Shown here one piece after another: positions 32,513 to 40,033 of a stretch of 64,000 nucleotides of DNA. The DNA is taken from NCBI GenBank assembly GCA_019218415.1, contig JAHUUL010000003.1, forward strand, positions 186,001 through 250,000, given 5' to 3'. The notes below the pieces were generated by a model. The model was not told the origin of the DNA and searched no databases. It worked only from the letters and a program-made list of their open reading frames with translations. The stretch comes from Dermabacteraceae bacterium TAE3-ERU27 (GTDB taxonomy: Bacteria > Actinomycetota > Actinomycetes > Actinomycetales > Dermabacteraceae). How positions within the stretch are numbered: the first letter of the stretch is position 1; the number at the start of each line of letters is the position of its first letter. The position numbers and the translations under genes are program-made.

Positions 32513-32944
32513 GTGAGCATAGACGAACACGCACCCCTGTTCGTGATCTCCGTGGCCGCCGAACTGGCCGGTATGCATCCGCAAACCCTGCGCACCTATG
32601 ACCGGCTCGGCATAGTTTCGCCCTCGCGCGCCTCGGGACGCGGTAGGCGCTACTCCGCGCGCAACATTGCCCAGCTGCGCCAGGTGCAGCAGCTATCGCA
32701 GGAAGAAGGCATAAATCTCGCCGGGATCAAACGCATCCTGGAACTGGAAAGCCAGGTAGCGCAGCTAAATACGCAGCTGGCTGCCGCGCAGGCGCACATC
32801 GCGGAAACGGCCGGCAGGGCCGTGCCGACCCGCCGCGTATTCGCCACCAGCCAGGAGGGCGAGATCACCGCGCTGCGGCAGGGGCAGCGTCCCCGCCGTT
32901 CCGTGAACGGCTCCGGGGCGCTGGTGGTGTGGCGTCCCCGCTAG
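32513..32944 (+). CDS. hspR: Heat-shock repressor HspR
   Basis: A 143-residue MerR-family repressor of the dnaK operon. The winged helix-turn-helix is the family hallmark VISVAAELAGMHPQTLRTYDRLGIV (about 11-35), followed by RGRRYSARNIAQLRQVQQLSQEEGINLAGI and a coiled coil (about 80-105). HspR binds HAIR repeats, usually with DnaK as co-repressor; two such sites are upstream of dnaK at 28623-28643 and 28687-28707. Start GTG follows AAGGAGAAAACAG. The C-terminal 40 residues are basic and not conserved. A weak hairpin (32926-32958) overlaps the stop. Confidence 0.95.
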   Translation: MSIDEHAPLFVISVAAELAGMHPQTLRTYDRLGIVSPSRASGRGRRYSARNIAQLRQVQQLSQEEGINLAGIKRILELESQVAQLNTQLAAAQAHIAETAGRAVPTRRVFATSQEGEITALRQGQRPRRSVNGSGALVVWRPR

Positions 32945-33002: not shown

Positions 33003-34271
33003 ATGTCTGTTACAGCCCCCCAGCAGTTGCGAGAGCGCTTCACCCCCGTAGTAGTCGGCGGAGATATCGGTGCCTACTCCCTGGCCCGCGCGTTCCATGA
33101 GGCATACGGGATAAAAACCGTCGTCGTCTCCAAGCTGCAGGGCTGGCACGTCAGCGACTCCGCGATCATCGAAAACGTTTCCTGCCCCGATCCGTTCAGT
33201 GCCGACGCGCTGCTGCCGGTGCTGCGGGAACTGGAAAATACCCGCCCCGGCAAGTTCCTGCTGCTCGGTTCCGCTGACGCCACGGTGAAGGCGATCATCG
33301 GCGCGCGGGAGGGACTCTCGGAACGCTGGCTAGCGCCCTACGTTGATATGGAAACGTTCCGGGCGGGCACCGAAAAGCAGAACTTCACCCGGCTTTGCCA
33401 GGACCTCGGGGTGGACCACCCCGCCACCGTAGTGGTCGATCTGGGTAGCGACGGGCCGCTGCCGGAGTCGGTGCCGTTCGCCTTCCCCGTGATCGCGAAA
33501 CCGGCCGAGGTTTCCGAATGGAAGCGCGCGGACTTCCCCGGCAAACAGAAGGTGCACACCGTAGCCTCGCTACCCGAGCTGCGTCAGCTGCTGACCACCA
33601 TTCGCGGGGCAGGTTATCGCGAGAGCATCATCGTGCAGGACATGATTCCCGGCGATGACCAGAACATGCGTATCCTGACCTGCTACTGCGACGAAAAATC
33701 GCGGGTACGTTTCGCCTCCTACGGTCGCACCCTGCTGGAGGAGCACAGCCCCGGCGCGATCGGCAACCCGGCCGCGATCGTCACCGACGTCAACCCCGAG
33801 GTGGTGGCGCAGGCGCAGAAGCTGGTGAGCGCGCTCGGCTGGACCGGGTATGCGAACTTCGACCTGAAGTACGACCCGCGCGATGGTAAGACCAAGTTCT
33901 TCGAGCTGAACCCGCGCCTGGGTCGCTCCAACTATTACGTCACCGCAGGCGGCAATAACCCTGTCACCTACTACGTGCGAGAGCTGATCGAGGGCACGCT
34001 GGAAGATAGCGACTCGCTGCTGCAGGAGCAGGAGGTGGCGCTCTACACCGTGGTGCCGGTGGCGCTGGTAAAGCACTACACGACCTTGCCGGACGCGAAG
34101 CGCCAGCTGGCGGCGGCCCGCAAGAACGTGAAGAACCCGCTCATCTACCGGGGCGTTGAGAAAAGCCCGAAGCGCTGGGCGTACATCGCGTTGGCGATGG
34201 CGAACTACGTTAAGAAGTTCCGCCGCTACTACCGCCCCCAGCCCGACGCTGGCGAGCACGGTAACGCCTGA
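33003..34271 (+). CDS. ATP-grasp ligase 1, D-aspartate ligase-like
   Basis: A 422-residue carboxylate-amine ligase. The N-terminal Rossmann-like domain opens with FTPVVVGGDIGAYSLARAFH (about 14-33), characteristic of the family that includes the Enterococcus faecium D-aspartate ligase. The ATP-grasp core has PVIAKPAEVSEW (about 163), a strand IIVQDMIPGDDQN (about 209) and the metal-binding YANFDLKYDP and FFELNPRLGRSNYY (about 281-320). Such enzymes activate a D-amino acid carboxylate and join it to the side-chain amine of the stem-peptide diamino acid. The aspartate racemase gene begins one base after its stop, strongly suggesting D-Asp as substrate. A paralogue lies at 35105-36343. Confidence 0.85.
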   Translation: MSVTAPQQLRERFTPVVVGGDIGAYSLARAFHEAYGIKTVVVSKLQGWHVSDSAIIENVSCPDPFSADALLPVLRELENTRPGKFLLLGSADATVKAIIGAREGLSERWLAPYVDMETFRAGTEKQNFTRLCQDLGVDHPATVVVDLGSDGPLPESVPFAFPVIAKPAEVSEWKRADFPGKQKVHTVASLPELRQLLTTIRGAGYRESIIVQDMIPGDDQNMRILTCYCDEKSRVRFASYGRTLLEEHSPGAIGNPAAIVTDVNPEVVAQAQKLVSALGWTGYANFDLKYDPRDGKTKFFELNPRLGRSNYYVTAGGNNPVTYYVRELIEGTLEDSDSLLQEQEVALYTVVPVALVKHYTTLPDAKRQLAAARKNVKNPLIYRGVEKSPKRWAYIALAMANYVKKFRRYYRPQPDAGEHGNA

Positions 34272-34272
34272 G

Positions 34273-35040
34273 ATGGACGGTAAGGTTTTCCCCGGCGAGG
34301 GTTTCGTCGGCGTGCTCGGCGGGGTCGGCCCCGCCGCCACCGCGCTGTTCATGGACCTGCTGGTGCGGGCCACCGACAGCGACACCGACCAGGGCCACAT
34401 CAACGCGCTCGTCACCCAGCACGCGGGCGTGCCGGACCGCACCGCGCACATCCTCAACCCGGCAGGCAGCGCCGACCCGGGCCCGGTGCTGGCCGCCGAC
34501 GCCCGTTTCCTGGAGCGGGCCGGGGCCGAGTTCCTGGTGCTGCCCTGCAACACTGCCCACCACTACAGCGAGGCGATCGAGTCCGGCATTGGCATCGAGC
34601 TGGTCAGCATCGTCGCCGCCACCGCCGAGGCCGCCCGCGAGGCGGCGGGGCCGGTCGGTAAGGTCGCGATCTTCGCGACCGAGGGCAACATCAACGCCGG
34701 TGTTTACCAGGACGCGCTCGACTCCCTGGCGGTCGGCCACCTGGTGCCGGACGCGGCCACGCAGGCGGCCGTGAACGAGCTGATCTACGACCAGGTGAAG
34801 GCGGGCAGGCCGGTAGATAACGAACTGTTCCTGTCGGCCCTGCGCACCGTCTCCGGGCAGGGTGCCGACGCCGTGATCCTGGGCTGCACCGAGCTGTCGG
34901 TGATCTACGACCGGGAGGGTTACCGGGCCGAAAACCTGGCCCGCGCCGCGCGCGGCCTGCCGTTCCTGGTCGATTCCCTCAGTGCGCTGGTGCGCGCCAC
35001 CGTCGCCCGCGCCGGGAAGCCCCTGCGCCCCGGTTTTTGA
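34273..35040 (+). CDS. Aspartate/glutamate racemase family protein, probable aspartate racemase
   Basis: A 255-residue cofactor-independent racemase. GVLGGVGPAATALFMDLL at the N-terminus is of the aspartate racemase type and not MurI. The two catalytic cysteines are Cys92 in LPCNTAHHY and Cys205 in ILGCTELSV, so L/D interconversion of aspartate is expected. I use the ATG at 34273, one base after the ligase stop; a longer frame from 34156 would overlap the ligase. Its output, D-Asp, is the substrate proposed for the adjacent ATP-grasp enzyme, as in the paired racemase and ligase of enterococci. D-glutamate supply is an alternative role. Confidence 0.88.
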   Translation: MDGKVFPGEGFVGVLGGVGPAATALFMDLLVRATDSDTDQGHINALVTQHAGVPDRTAHILNPAGSADPGPVLAADARFLERAGAEFLVLPCNTAHHYSEAIESGIGIELVSIVAATAEAAREAAGPVGKVAIFATEGNINAGVYQDALDSLAVGHLVPDAATQAAVNELIYDQVKAGRPVDNELFLSALRTVSGQGADAVILGCTELSVIYDREGYRAENLARAARGLPFLVDSLSALVRATVARAGKPLRPGF

Positions 35041-35054
35041 CCTGGTTTTATCGA

Positions 35055-35099
35055 TACGAAAAGGCCCGGCGGATAACTTTTCCGCCGGGCCTTTTCGTA
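35055..35099. terminator. Bidirectional terminator between the racemase and ATP-grasp 2
   Basis: TACGAAAAGGCCCGGCGGA pairs over 19 bases with TCCGCCGGGCCTTTTCGTA around a seven-base loop. A-rich and T-rich arms make it effective in both directions between convergent genes. Confidence 0.92.
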
Positions 35100-35104
35100 C
35101 CTAC

Positions 35105-36343
35105 CTAGAAGCCGGTCTCGGTCGGCTTCGGGTAATGCTTCAGGAACTTGCGCACGTGGTTGGCGGCCTTCGCCAGGCCATGGAACTGCATCCACGCGCC
35201 CTCCTTGCGGTACAGCCACGGGTTCACGGTGCGCTTGCGCGCCACCCGCTTAACCCACTTGCGCTTTTCCGGGTCCAGCACATAGCGCATCAGCAGGGTC
35301 TTCGGCACGATCGTGTACAGCACCTCGTCGATGCCCACCACCGGCTCGCGGCGGCGACCGTAGATCGCGTCGTCGGCCACGAACTCGGCGACGTTCGCGC
35401 CCGCCCCGGTCACGTAGTAGCTATTACGGCCGATGCGCGGGTTCACCTCGAAGAAGTGCTGCTTACCCGTGCGCGGGTCCTCCTTCACATCAAAGTTCGC
35501 GAAGCCGACGTAGTCGGTCGCGTCCAGGATGCGGCGCGCCTGCTCCAGCGTGTCCGGGAACGTCGTGGAGATCATCGCGGCCGGGCGGCCCAGCGCGTCC
35601 GGGGTGTGCTCCTCCAGCAGCACGGCTGCGCTGGCCAGCAGCGTCACCTCGCCGTGCGAATCACGGTAGGCGGTCACGGAACGCATCGTGGTGTCGTCGC
35701 CCGGGATCAGCTCCTGCACCACGAAACGGTCGCGGAAGCCAGCGCCGTGCAGGCGGGAGGCCAGGTCGGCCAGCTCGTCGGCGGAGGAGATGAAGTAGAC
35801 CTTCTTCTTCCCAGCCATGCGGATGTTCACGTGCGGGGTGCTCACCGCGGGCTTCGCCACCACCGGGTAGGGCAGGTCCAGGCCGTCCACGGCGGGCAGG
35901 CTGCCGTCGCGGAATTCCAGCACCTCAGTGCGGGGCGTGTCGATCTCCAGCTCCCGGCACAGCCGCGCAAACTCGGCCTTGTCCGACAGCTCCTGCACCG
36001 ACTCCAGGGTGGGGATGCGGATCTCGTAGTGCTGATCGAGCACCTCGCGGTTGCGGGCGATGAACTCGACATCGCCGTCCGTGTTGCACAGCAGCAGCGC
36101 CTTGCGCCCGGCCGGGCGCTGCCCGGCGACCTCCGTCAGGGCCGACAGCCAGGCGGCATCGTCGGCACCCGCCGGAACGTCCTTCACGGTGCAGGTGATG
36201 GAGCGAGCGAACGGCTCCGGGGCGGCGATGGCCACCACGGTGCTAACGATGCCGTAGCGCTCGTGGAAGGCCCGGGTGAGGGCGTAAATGCCCAGCCCGG
36301 AACCGATGAACACAACGTCGAAGGGGGCGTCGGTGCCTGTCAC
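35105..36343 (-). CDS. ATP-grasp ligase 2, paralogue of ligase 1
   Basis: A 412-residue carboxylate-amine ligase of the same family as ligase 1, recognisable from FDVVFIGSGLGIYALTRAFHE (about 8-28), PVVAKPAVSTPHV, FVVQELIPGDDTT and the metal site FANFDVKEDPRTG and FFEVNPRIGRNSYYV (about 283-322). Differences are concentrated in the N-terminal half and in the 220-260 region that would shape the amino acid pocket, so a different donor or acceptor is likely. Start GTG is preceded by GCAGGAG. asnB is 48 bases upstream on the same strand, so the two are probably co-transcribed. Confidence 0.83.
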   Translation of the reverse strand: MTGTDAPFDVVFIGSGLGIYALTRAFHERYGIVSTVVAIAAPEPFARSITCTVKDVPAGADDAAWLSALTEVAGQRPAGRKALLLCNTDGDVEFIARNREVLDQHYEIRIPTLESVQELSDKAEFARLCRELEIDTPRTEVLEFRDGSLPAVDGLDLPYPVVAKPAVSTPHVNIRMAGKKKVYFISSADELADLASRLHGAGFRDRFVVQELIPGDDTTMRSVTAYRDSHGEVTLLASAAVLLEEHTPDALGRPAAMISTTFPDTLEQARRILDATDYVGFANFDVKEDPRTGKQHFFEVNPRIGRNSYYVTGAGANVAEFVADDAIYGRRREPVVGIDEVLYTIVPKTLLMRYVLDPEKRKWVKRVARKRTVNPWLYRKEGAWMQFHGLAKAANHVRKFLKHYPKPTETGF

Positions 36344-36391
36344 TGTAAAACTCCTGCGGGTAGGTGCTGGCGGCGAAAGCTGCGGCTGGTT

Positions 36392-38233
36392 TTAGCGCTT
36401 AACGAAGAACTCGTCGTGCCACACCAGGAAGCAGTAGATCGACCAGATCCGCTTCATGTAGCCGTCCACGCCGCTGCGGTGAATCTCAAGCATGTTCAGG
36501 ATGTGCTCGCGGTTGAAGAACTCGGCGGCCGTGTCGCTCGCGAACAGATCGCGCACCGTGCTGAAGTACGGCTCCTGGCGCAGCCAGTCGTTCAGCGGCA
36601 CCGGGAAGCCCAGCTTCTTCTTGTTCGCGGTACGCTCCGGAATCTCCGCCAGGGCGGTGCGGCGCAGCGCGATCTTGGTGTTTTCCTTGGTGACGCGGAA
36701 ACGCGAGGGGATCTTGCGGGCCACGTCGAACACGCGCAGATCCAGGAACGGCACGCGCAGCTCCAGAGAATGCGCCATCGACATCTTGTCGGCCTTCTGC
36801 AGAATGTCGTAAAGCATCCAGGTGTGGATATCGACGTGCTGCATCTGCGTCACATCGTCCATGTCCGCCACCTCGTCAAACAGGGGCCGCACGCGCTCGG
36901 CGGTGCTGGGGGCCGCGATCGGCTTGGCCAGCACCTGCTCGCGCTCGGTGGGGGAGAACACGTAGTTGTTGCGGAAGAACCGCTCCGGCAGCGGCTGCGC
37001 GTTACGCAGCAGGAAGCGCTTGCCACGGAAATCGGGCAGCTTCTTCGCGACCGCCGCCACGGCCTTGCGGATAGGTGCCGGGACCTTTTGATAGGGGGCG
37101 TAATCGATCGGTTCGCGGTACTGGTTGTAGCCGCCGAACAGTTCGTCGGCGCCCTCGCCGGAAACCACTACCTTGACCTGCTTCGCGGCCTCCTCGGTAA
37201 GGAAGAACAGGGGCAGGGCCGACGGGTTCGGCAACGGCTCGTCCATCAGGTACTGGATGCGCGGCACTGCGTTGAACGTTTCGTCCGCGCCGATCTCGCG
37301 CTCGTGAAACTCGGCACCGATCTTCTGCGCAAAATCGCGGGCGTAGGAAAGCTCGCTGTACTTCTGTTCGGCATAGCCGACGGAGAACGCCTTGATCTTG
37401 TTGCCGGTCTTCGTCATCTCCTTGGTGATGTAGGAGCTGTCGATACCGGAAGACAGGAAGCAGCCCACCTCGACGTCGGCCACCTGGTGGGCCTCCACGG
37501 AGTCCTCCACCACGTTCTGGATCTCGCGGGTCCAGTGCGTGAGGTCCTTCGTTTCGTCCGGGCTGAAACGCAGCGAATGGTAGCGGCTGACCCGCATTTC
37601 GCTGCCGTTGAAGGTGAAGCATTCGCCGCCCAGCAGCTTCTTGACGCCCTTGAACAGGGTTTCGTTGCTCGGGATGTACTCGAACGAAAGGTAGTCGGGC
37701 AGGACGTCGGTGTTTACTTCCTTTACGAAGTTCGGCTGCGGCAGGAACGCCTTCACCTCGGAACCGAAGATCAGTTTGTCGCCGTTGTGCTGGTAGTAGA
37801 ACGGCTTGATGCCGAACGGATCGCGGGCGCCGAACAGGGTGCGGGTTTCGGTGTTCCAAATGACGAAAGCGAACATGCCGCGCAGGCGCTGCAGTACGTC
37901 CTCGCCCCAGGTTTCGTAACCGCGCAGAATGACTTCGGTATCGGAACCGGTGCGGAACTCGTGGCCCGCCGCGATTAGTTCTTCGCGCAGCTCACGGTAG
38001 TTATAGATTTCGCCGTTAAAGCAGATCACGCGCTTGGCATCGTCGCTCACGATCGGCTGGTGGCCGTGGCTGAGGTCAATGATGGAAAGGCGGCGGAAAC
38101 CGAGCGCCACGTCATCATCGATGAAGTAACCGTCCGAGTCCGGGCCGCGGTGGATGATCTCCGTGGCCATGGCCTCGATAACGGGGCGCTTATCGCCGAT
38201 GGAGGGGTCAACAAAACCTGCGAAACCGCACAT
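36392..38233 (-). CDS. asnB: AsnB-type glutamine amidotransferase, probably peptidoglycan-amidating
   Basis: A 613-residue enzyme with the asparagine synthetase B layout. The mature N-terminal Cys2 (MCGFAGF) is the glutaminase nucleophile; FRRLSIIDL, FNGEIYNY and TGSDTEV complete this domain (1-200). The synthetase domain has the ATP loop FLSSGIDSS and VVSGEGADELFGGYNQYREP. It is most similar by eye to Bacillus subtilis AsnB and corynebacterial LtsA, including VDIHTWMLYDILQKADKM and KKLGFPVP; those amidate a peptidoglycan carboxylate. With the racemase and ligases, amidation of a cross-bridge D-Asp or stem residue is inferred. Free asparagine synthesis is the alternative. The start is moved to 38233 so that Cys follows Met; AAAGGA lies upstream. 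Confidence 0.88.
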   Translation of the reverse strand: MCGFAGFVDPSIGDKRPVIEAMATEIIHRGPDSDGYFIDDDVALGFRRLSIIDLSHGHQPIVSDDAKRVICFNGEIYNYRELREELIAAGHEFRTGSDTEVILRGYETWGEDVLQRLRGMFAFVIWNTETRTLFGARDPFGIKPFYYQHNGDKLIFGSEVKAFLPQPNFVKEVNTDVLPDYLSFEYIPSNETLFKGVKKLLGGECFTFNGSEMRVSRYHSLRFSPDETKDLTHWTREIQNVVEDSVEAHQVADVEVGCFLSSGIDSSYITKEMTKTGNKIKAFSVGYAEQKYSELSYARDFAQKIGAEFHEREIGADETFNAVPRIQYLMDEPLPNPSALPLFFLTEEAAKQVKVVVSGEGADELFGGYNQYREPIDYAPYQKVPAPIRKAVAAVAKKLPDFRGKRFLLRNAQPLPERFFRNNYVFSPTEREQVLAKPIAAPSTAERVRPLFDEVADMDDVTQMQHVDIHTWMLYDILQKADKMSMAHSLELRVPFLDLRVFDVARKIPSRFRVTKENTKIALRRTALAEIPERTANKKKLGFPVPLNDWLRQEPYFSTVRDLFASDTAAEFFNREHILNMLEIHRSGVDGYMKRIWSIYCFLVWHDEFFVKR

Positions 38234-38335: not shown

Positions 38336-39979
38336 TTAAAGCTCGGGTGTGAGCCATACTGCGCAGTTGCCGGGAATGGTCCCGGAGCTCTCCTCCACGG
38401 GGGAGGAGGAGAGCGCAATGCGGGTGTTTTCCAGTCCCAGTGCCGACAGCGCCAGCGGCTTATCCGCCAGGTTGATCACCACGGTGACAGCCCCGAGGGA
38501 AAAGACCAGCGTGTCCTCTCCCGTCTCGCGTAGCGCAAACTCCTGTTCGCCCAGCTTCAGCTCGCGGCGCAGCGCGATGGCGGCGCGATACATCTCGAAC
38601 GTGGAACCGGGAACCCCCACCTGCAGGTCTGCGGCACGCTCGCCGTAGCTGGCGGGCTGGGGCAGCCAGGATTTGCCGGTTTCGCTGAACCCGTATGCCG
38701 GTGCGTCGTGCTGCCAGGCCATCGGCACGCGGCAGCCGTCGCGGCCGGGAACCCCGGCGCGCTTGTGCGCCGGGTCCTCGCGCAGCTCGTCCGGGATGTC
38801 GGCCACCTCTTCCAGGCCGAGTTCCTCCCCCTGGTAAAGGTAGGCGGAACCGGGCAGGGAAAGCATCGCCAGGCTGACGGCGCGGGCGCGGCGCAGGCCC
38901 AGTTCGCGGTCGGCGGCGGGTTCGTCGCGCGAAAGCCCCTCACCGAACTTGTAATCCGGGGCGTAACCGTAACGGGTAACGTGGCGGATCACGTCGTGGT
39001 TGGAAAGCACCCAGGTGTTGGAACCGTTTACCTCGCGGGAAAGCTGCATGGGCTTTTCGATCGCGTCCCGCAGCAGGTGCTTGTCCCAGCGGGCCAGCAG
39101 GAACGAGAAGTTGAACGCCTGGTGCAGCTCGTCGGGCCGAATGTAGAGGGGCATCCGGTGGCGGGGGGCGCAGCATTCCGCGACCAGCACCCGATCGCCG
39201 GGGTATTCGTTGATGATCTTGCGCCAGTCACGGTAAATCTCGTGCACGCCGTCCTGATCGAAGTACGGGGGAGCCTTCTCGGAATCGAGGGAAAGCAGGC
39301 CCTTGGCGTTAACCTCGGTGTCGGGCAGGCCCTCGGCCTTGATCATGCCGTGGGCGACGTCGATGCGCATGCCGGCCACCCCGCGATCCAGCCAGAAACG
39401 CAGGATGCCGCGGAACATCTCCCGCACCTTCGGGTTCTCCCAGTTCCAGTCGGGCTGGCTGGTATCGAACAGGTGCAGACACCACTGGCCGTAGCTGCCG
39501 TCGGCCTCTTTCACCCTGGTCCAGGCGTCGCCGTGGAAGATGGACTCCCAGTTGTTCGGGGGCAGTTCACCGTTTTCGCCGCGCCCCTCGCGGAACATGA
39601 ACATTTCGCGCTCGGGGGAGCCGGGAGCGGCAGCGAGCGCCTTCTGGAACAGGGGGTGCTCGGAGGAACAGTGGTTCGGCACCAGGTCAATGATGATCCG
39701 GATGTTTCGTTCCTTGGCGCGGGCCAGCATCTCGTCGAAGTCGGCCAGCGTGCCGAAGCGGGGATCGACGTCGCAGTAGTCGGCCACGTCGTAGCCGCCG
39801 TCGTTTTGCGGGGAGGTGAAGAACGGGGACAGCCAGATCGCGTCGACCCCGAGCTTTTCCAGATGGTCTAGGCGGGAGGTGATTCCCTTCAGATCTCCCA
39901 TGCCGTCGCCGTTCGCGTCGGCGAAGGAACGGGGGTAGACCTGATATACGACGGCGTCACGCCACCAGGGGGCAGTCAT
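38336..39979 (-). CDS. GH13 alpha-glucosidase (oligo-1,6-glucosidase-like)
   Basis: A 547-residue glycoside hydrolase that cleaves glucose from short alpha-glucans in the cytoplasm. The four GH13 regions are visible: IIIDLVPNHCS (region I), GMRIDVAHGM with the nucleophile Asp (about residue 205), VLVAECCAP with the acid/base Glu (about 265) and VLSNHDVIRH with the transition-state Asp. The opening WWRDAVVYQVYPRSFADANGDGMGDLKGI is typical of the oligo-1,6-glucosidase/alpha-glucosidase group. Trehalose 6-phosphate hydrolase is less likely since the importer is an ABC system. GTG at 39991 is possible; the ATG at 39979 has AAAGG upstream. Confidence 0.88.
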   Translation of the reverse strand: MTAPWWRDAVVYQVYPRSFADANGDGMGDLKGITSRLDHLEKLGVDAIWLSPFFTSPQNDGGYDVADYCDVDPRFGTLADFDEMLARAKERNIRIIIDLVPNHCSSEHPLFQKALAAAPGSPEREMFMFREGRGENGELPPNNWESIFHGDAWTRVKEADGSYGQWCLHLFDTSQPDWNWENPKVREMFRGILRFWLDRGVAGMRIDVAHGMIKAEGLPDTEVNAKGLLSLDSEKAPPYFDQDGVHEIYRDWRKIINEYPGDRVLVAECCAPRHRMPLYIRPDELHQAFNFSFLLARWDKHLLRDAIEKPMQLSREVNGSNTWVLSNHDVIRHVTRYGYAPDYKFGEGLSRDEPAADRELGLRRARAVSLAMLSLPGSAYLYQGEELGLEEVADIPDELREDPAHKRAGVPGRDGCRVPMAWQHDAPAYGFSETGKSWLPQPASYGERAADLQVGVPGSTFEMYRAAIALRRELKLGEQEFALRETGEDTLVFSLGAVTVVINLADKPLALSALGLENTRIALSSSPVEESSGTIPGNCAVWLTPEL

Positions 39980-40033
39980 TACAGCAAACACCTTTCGGTA
40001 TCGATTGAGTTTTGCTTGCGGCCAATAAATGAC

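Follow-up and report, generated by a model that had tools for sequence, protein, structure and literature searches.

Cross-bridges containing D-aspartate (D-Asp) or D-glutamate (D-Glu) are said to be built by ATP-grasp ligases (PMC2922099). In the closest described systems, those of Aslfm in Enterococcus faecium and AslA in Lactococcus lactis, an ATP-grasp ligase and an aspartate racemase (Asl-RacD) are encoded together and a D-Asp side chain is placed on the position-3 residue; the same report describes amidation of D-Asp by AsnH in L. lactis and of meso-diaminopimelate (meso-DAP) by AsnB1 (PMC4155827). The A4-gamma wall with meso-DAP is reported in three variants, confined to Brachybacterium, Devriesea and Dermabacter (PMC4062624), and walls with L-ornithine (L-Orn), namely L-Orn-D-Glu and L-Orn-D-Asp, are tabulated for near relatives (PMC8878594). 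Here we describe a four-gene locus from Dermabacteraceae bacterium TAE3-ERU27 (genome of 1,998,373 bases, 37 contigs, 98% complete), located in a 64,000-nucleotide window, the whole stretch of DNA that was analysed (contig JAHUUL010000003.1, positions 186,001 to 250,000). A first-pass annotation, made from the letters alone, had proposed a peptidoglycan cross-bridge module of four genes in two converging pairs, an arrangement borne out by the coordinates and strands:

33003–34271, + strand: Lig1, ATP-grasp ligase of the Asp clade (422 aa), putative D-aspartate ligase with the diamino acid at position 3 as acceptor
34273–35040, + strand: Rac, Asp/Glu-superfamily racemase (ATG at 34273, stop codon ending at 35040), predicted to supply D-Asp
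35105–36343, − strand: Lig2, ATP-grasp ligase of the Glu clade (412 aa), predicted to attach the second residue of the bridge, D-Glu
36392–38233, − strand: AsnB-type glutamine amidotransferase (613 aa, ATG at 38233, MCGFAG), may amidate either the bridge or meso-DAP

On balance, the product of this locus is probably the interpeptide bridge, of structure meso-DAP-D-Asp-D-Glu, in a meso-DAP wall of the A4-gamma type. Gene content, fold, clade membership, co-occurrence and alternation at one site were computed directly, and we infer the substrates, the order of addition and the role of AsnB. In the proposed pathway, Rac would convert L-Asp to D-Asp, which Lig1 would activate with ATP (as a beta-aspartyl phosphate, by analogy with AslA) and join to the free amino group of the precursor meso-DAP; Lig2 would then add D-Glu, derived from MurI, onto that D-Asp, and AsnB might amidate a free carboxylate on the product. 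That Lig1 and Rac form the D-Asp half of the bridge is very likely, and Lig2, judged from its relatives, is likely to be a D-Glu ligase. The locus thus resembles Asl-RacD in its gene pairing and in the predicted D-Asp on position 3, and differs in that the predicted acceptor is meso-DAP, not L-Lys, and in carrying an extra Glu-type ligase for a second residue.

Ligase fold, ligase clades and the racemase partner

The host ligases also differ from Asl-RacD in that their Pfam and NCBIfam matches are confined to generic ATP-grasp models, and are likened to it by fold and gene pairing. Lig1 has no Pfam match at 0.001, Lig2 matches CPSase_L_D2 alone (21.1 bits, cut-off 19.8), and the NCBIfam scores, to generic ATP-grasp models only, are far below cut-off. 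A sequence search of the PDB with Lig1 returned carbamoyl-phosphate synthases only, and its function therefore cannot be read from these matches. AlphaFold models of both proteins are confident (pLDDT 93.7 for Lig1 and 93.8 for Lig2) and match PDB ATP-grasp enzymes at 12–18% identity with TM-scores of about 0.4–0.6 on the query, including the L-amino acid ligase 3vot, D-Ala-D-Ala ligase, PylC and PurK. As modelled, Lig1 and Lig2 have the ATP-grasp carboxylate-amine ligase fold. No FemAB-family protein (PF02388), the mark of a tRNA-dependent bridge of the FemABX kind, was found in the 98% complete host genome. Host MurE carries a DNPR motif, which we take to be a meso-DAP marker; the host is a member of the Dermabacteraceae with a meso-DAP-type MurE, as a meso-DAP A4-gamma wall requires.

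The second ligase had been noted as a paralogue and as a sign of a bridge of more than one residue. Lig2 is 37% identical to Lig1, only these two members of the family were found in the host genome, and the two fall in different clades, which supports the longer bridge. In a tree of 64 hand-picked ligase rows (one of the ligase trees, all made by a quick method), one supported split (97) separates an Asp side from a Glu side. Lig1 and the ligase of Cellulomonas flavigena fall in the Asp clade (20 rows, support 86), while the Glu clade (42 rows) holds Lig2, the tandem ligases T1 and T2 described below, the ligases that occur singly in Cellulomonas genomes lacking the racemase, and partner ligases from some genomes with Lig1 and Rac. 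The Lig1-type ligases of Dermabacteraceae form a single clade (23 rows, support 100). Clustering left 48 of 105 rows in the Asp set (L055 and L271 excluded) and 95 of 201 in the Glu set. Eleven positions are each more than 85% fixed for differing residues between the 48 Asp-clade rows and 94 of the 95 Glu-clade rows (L270 dropped), among them, in Lig1/Lig2 numbering, S90/N87, I224/S222, R236/T234, W280/Y278, S309/N307 and E327/D325; the alignments A2 and A3 took 50 of 143 and 45 of 95 rows. The divergent ligase pair of L270 and L271, 31–35% identical to Lig1, sits on a long branch of its own.

Rac belongs to PF01177 (9.2e-35) and TIGR00035 and has both catalytic-type cysteines, C92 (PCNTA) and C205 (GCTEL), as first annotated; both motifs recur in 92 of 94 ligase-linked racemases (repeats of one genome counted). 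The D-aspartate ligase-like gene indeed lies one base upstream of it, the Lig1 stop codon ending at 34271, and in 12 of 21 relative loci (L034–L054; automated start choice) the two genes overlap by 4 bases. Besides Rac, the host carries one glutamate racemase, of the MurI type.

The pairing extends to the genus Cellulomonas, in which a Lig1-type ligase (48–51% identical to Lig1) occurs in 20 of 76 genomes and a racemase 54–100% identical to that of C. flavigena occurs in the same 20; the other 56 have no such pair, their best racemase match being 40% or less. Ligase and racemase are adjacent at all 20 Lig1-type loci (stretches around the loci), and no racemase stands beside a Glu-type ligase at 10 loci from single-contig genomes. 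C. flavigena (G333) carries the pair, and strain 134T of this species is reported to have ornithine and a D-Asp bridge (PMC3035266). The 20/76 co-occurrence and the C. flavigena pair together support the original proposal of a D-Asp cross-bridge module with its own racemase. In a joint set of Lig1-like loci drawn from Cellulomonas and other families (20 in all), 15 have a racemase within 1.5 kb and five do not; one of these five, G153, has a divergent racemase further off, and another, G266, has none within about 3.5 kb, as is the case for G211.

Cellulomonas-type A4 walls (L-Orn-D-Asp or L-Orn-D-Glu) are comparable in that the same two ligase clades occur, with the same racemase partner for the Asp clade. 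They differ in ligase number: there, 73 of 76 genomes have one ligase of this family (two in G363, G364 and G365), whereas 43 of 44 Dermabacteraceae genomes have two.

Other arrangements of these genes were seen. At L274 (G211) and L275 (G266), from another family, an Asp-clade ligase adjoins a Glu-clade ligase, with no racemase in the stretch examined. Genus g14 (L090, L094, L095, L097, L098) has a Glu-type ligase, an Asp-type ligase and a racemase in tandem, an order unseen in the Dermabacteraceae set. In the Cellulomonas genus, the 2.5 Mb genome G365 carries a tandem pair of Glu-type ligases (L269, 3508–6023), perhaps for a two-residue bridge.

Two architectures and reported wall chemistry

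We compared 44 genomes of the family, 35 of them Brachybacterium (genus label g2) and the rest Dermabacter, Devriesea, Helcobacillus and the host genus. Two architectures were found. Type R, with Lig1 and Rac together with a Lig2-type ligase, occurs in 22 of the 44; type T, with two tandem Lig2-like ligases and neither Lig1 nor Rac at the site, occurs in 21. The odd genome, G042, has one ligase, closest to T2, and lacks Lig1 and Rac at the locus. With hspR on the left, the gene order is Lig1> Rac> <Lig2 in R and <T2 <T1 in T. Among R genomes, the second ligase of G030 lies on another contig, and the Lig2-type gene of G027 (L054, 7310–8528) is broken into several pieces, possibly by an assembly error. 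In the window, the site is marked by the following features:

32513–32944, + strand: hspR-type MerR regulator (PF13411, 1.2e-16), left landmark, outside the cassette
35059–35095, no strand: 15-bp hairpin between the converging genes, read by eye, perhaps a two-way terminator
38336–39991, − strand: alpha-amylase family gene (PF00128, 1.6e-100), right landmark of the cassette site

The hspR gene closes a dnaK-grpE-dnaJ-hspR run (the first three names assigned by reading the sequence) and lies beside both R and T cassettes in relatives; an amylase-like flank protein is present at 36 of 42 family loci. The hairpin is not listed by a pattern scan whose promoter- and terminator-like sites, the terminator count included, are at chance level. 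At this locus the nearest named genome is TAE3-ERU5 (L160; among the best 80 of 154 confirmed places), with all four proteins 98–99% identical to those of the host, which is one of the Dermabacteraceae and not, as had been guessed, of the Actinomycetaceae.

T1 and the Lig2 of R genomes form one clade in both trees (99) and share place and direction, so that the alternation is between T2 and Lig1 with Rac. From this alternation and from clade membership follow the predicted bridges, D-Asp then D-Glu in R, and D-Glu then D-Glu in T, where a second Glu-type ligase would take the place of the D-Asp half. The corresponding formulae are meso-DAP-D-Asp-D-Glu and meso-DAP-D-Glu2. In PF01177, Rac is found in 22 of 22 R genomes, and 14 of 21 T genomes have a single match, presumed to be MurI, an identity confirmed by family model in the host only.

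The first-pass annotation had suggested comparing gene neighbourhoods with known wall types, and the outcome is divided. Besides C. flavigena, agreement is seen for Brachybacterium vulturis (G035, type T), whose wall is reported without Asp, and for the probable B. avium (G003, type R), whose wall is reported with Asp, glycine (Gly) being reported in both (PMC6090031). B. faecium (G008), with DAP, Ala and Glu in an A4-gamma murein for which no Gly is given in the available description (PMC3035206), is also T. Outside the family, Pengzhenrongella frigida carries a locus of the Glu type (L164), and two other Pengzhenrongella species are reported to have L-Orn-D-Glu (PMC11165906). The comparison fails for two species, for which the data are compositions without chirality or bridge sequence: B. 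equifaecis (L152), in which thin-layer chromatography is reported to give only DAP, Ala and Glu, with neither Asp nor Gly (PMC10581053), carries an R cassette, and B. nesterenkovii (L137, G017), tabulated with Asp (PMC10581053), is T with a single PF01177 match.

These two species weigh against a meso-DAP-D-Asp-D-Glu product, as do several further observations. Three Dermabacter genomes (L077, L078, L079) have Lig1 and Rac beside hspR, with their second ligase, of T1 type, encoded at another place. G317 (L271) and G377 (L270), which have no cassette-type racemase, have ligases on the Asp side, forming the long two-row branch. Cellulosimicrobium cellulans walls contain D-Asp, and its locus L173 holds a Glu-type ligase only. 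Five T genomes (G011, G013, G014, G031, G032) have a further racemase elsewhere, above the TIGR00035 cut-off. Finally, we found no wall analysis of the host in the literature. The consulted text of a B. epidermidis paper (PMC8983266) and that of PMC6113628 hold no Dermabacteraceae bridge data, and our literature searches returned no paper tying these ligases to these walls.

The extra racemases of the five T genomes have PRK10200 as their best model, below its cut-off, and score 105–121 bits to the cysteate racemase model CuyB; PRK10200 is presumably YgeA-type. Two other T genomes, G002 and G019, have other PF01177 members. Judging by these matches, an Asp racemase other than the cassette Rac may exist in part of the T genomes. 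In a scan of 10 of 11 stretches (all but L296), the five T genomes and Devriesea (L290–L295) were seen to hold an additional Asp/Glu-type racemase unrelated to the cassette.

AsnB and competing explanations

The AsnB-type protein matches PF00733, PF13537 and TIGR01536 (504 bits, cut-off 267), has the N-terminal glutaminase Cys2 and is the sole PF00733 protein in the host genome. At the level of architecture it resembles AsnH, AsnB1 and LtsA, with an N-terminal Cys and an Asn_synthase domain, while the special likeness to wall-amidating AsnB and LtsA that was first annotated is putative; it differs in that its place is common to only 4 of the 44 family genomes, where an ortholog of at least 65% identity lies beside Lig2 (4 of 22 R genomes, host included: two of the host genus, Devriesea and one Dermabacter metagenome-assembled genome). 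A match of any kind, in some cases a partial one, is present in 34 of the 44 genomes; outside the four, G042 has one at 40%, and the remaining genomes have matches of 39% or less or none. Whether AsnB is a wall amidase is an even call; as the sole PF00733 protein, with an ortholog in 4 of 22 R genomes, it could equally conceivably amidate meso-DAP or synthesise L-Asn.

A D-Asn bridge, formed if AsnB amidated the D-Asp that Lig1 attaches (the activity of AsnH in L. lactis), is doubtful as a product here, although it is compatible with the meso-DAP-D-Asp-D-Glu structure. In its favour, the AsnB gene precedes Lig2 on the − strand at a distance of 48 bases, the ortholog recurs there in the four R genomes, and AsnH offers a precedent (PMC4155827). 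AsnB1, which amidates meso-DAP, is just as good a precedent, however (PMC4155827), and the other 18 R genomes have no AsnB above 39% identity anywhere. D-Asn was set aside as the principal interpretation, the AsnB neighbour not being a constant partner of the cassette.

It is unlikely that Lig1 and Rac make a one-residue D-Asp bridge while Lig2 adds something other than D-Glu, such as glycine on the alpha-carboxyl of the stem D-Glu. The Gly reported in the B. vulturis and B. avium walls (PMC6090031) speaks for such a role. So does the absence of a second ligase of the family from 19 of the 20 Cellulomonas-genus genomes with Lig1 and Rac (G363 being the exception), from which it follows that Lig2 is dispensable for a D-Asp bridge. 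Lig2, however, groups with ligases of genomes whose walls, where reported, have D-Glu, and B. faecium has two Glu-type ligases with a murein described as DAP, Ala and Glu without Gly (PMC3035206).

That Rac is a cysteate racemase (CuyB), with ligases acting on a soluble sulfonate or peptide and not on the wall, is highly improbable: Rac does score 201 bits to NF052483 (cut-off 190), but the label is not specific, because the C. flavigena racemase (L239, 4325–5056), which lies beside the same ligase in a species with a reported D-Asp bridge, also passes the cut-off and scores higher, at 246 bits. We therefore set that label aside. The racemase at L048 scores 189.7 bits, just under the cut-off, and the NF052483 name is probably misleading for these racemases, that of C. 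flavigena included.

Apparent exchange of cassettes at one site

The meso-DAP-D-Asp-D-Glu interpretation concerns one of two cassettes that occupy the same place, and closely related flanks can enclose different cassettes. B. vulturis (T) and the probable B. avium (R) are 87% identical over 4.8 kb on the hspR side and 88 and 93% identical on the amylase side; their cassettes match only in short or weak stretches (70–79%). The flanks of G023 (R) and G009 (T) are 86–90% identical, with one further stretch at 78%. G003 and G023, both R, have cassettes 85% identical, hspR-side flanks at 77–79% and amylase-side flanks at 86% near the cassette and 79% beyond it.

Over 465 pairs from 31 of the 35 Brachybacterium loci (L042, L043, L045 and L047 excluded, the right flank being too short), mean hspR-side identity is 75.5% for R/R, 76.5% for T/T and 75.5% for R/T pairs, while the aligned length of the cassette is 90, 98 and 28%, respectively. 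Right-flank means are 81 for R/R, 61 for T/T and 67 for R/T, counted with zeros where the flank differs.

When up to five flank proteins from 42 loci (15 under half filled) are placed on a tree, the R/T label changes 10 times, at least 6 of them forced by supported branches, compared with 14.3 changes for shuffled labels (6 of 500 shuffles were as low). A tree of HspR only (36 of 43 loci) gives 9 label changes, at least 4 of them forced. The label is clustered yet has changed many times, and neither tree is compatible with R and T each having arisen only once along the flanks. From these comparisons, it seems that one cassette type has repeatedly replaced the other at this single site; the counts rest on flank trees whose flanks may themselves recombine.

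We view the cassette as a D-Asp/D-Glu bridge version of the known Asl-RacD system, in which the apparent repeated exchange at a fixed site is the unexpected feature. Cross-bridge chemistry may then be an exchangeable allele, a proposal we hold to be as probable as its opposite: recombination in the conserved flanks would replace one whole cassette, R or T, by the other, again and again and between species, so that the bridge switches from D-Asp-D-Glu to D-Glu-D-Glu or back; lysins, bacteriocins or lysozyme might supply a diversifying selection.

Bridge types have long been used to classify actinobacteria, and the cassette would give a genetic handle on that trait, with two ligase clades and one racemase as a genotype predicting bridge type. 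If cassettes are indeed exchanged time and again at this site, the bridge trait would move between species, and wall type in these bacteria would be a horizontally acquired trait and not a lineage marker.

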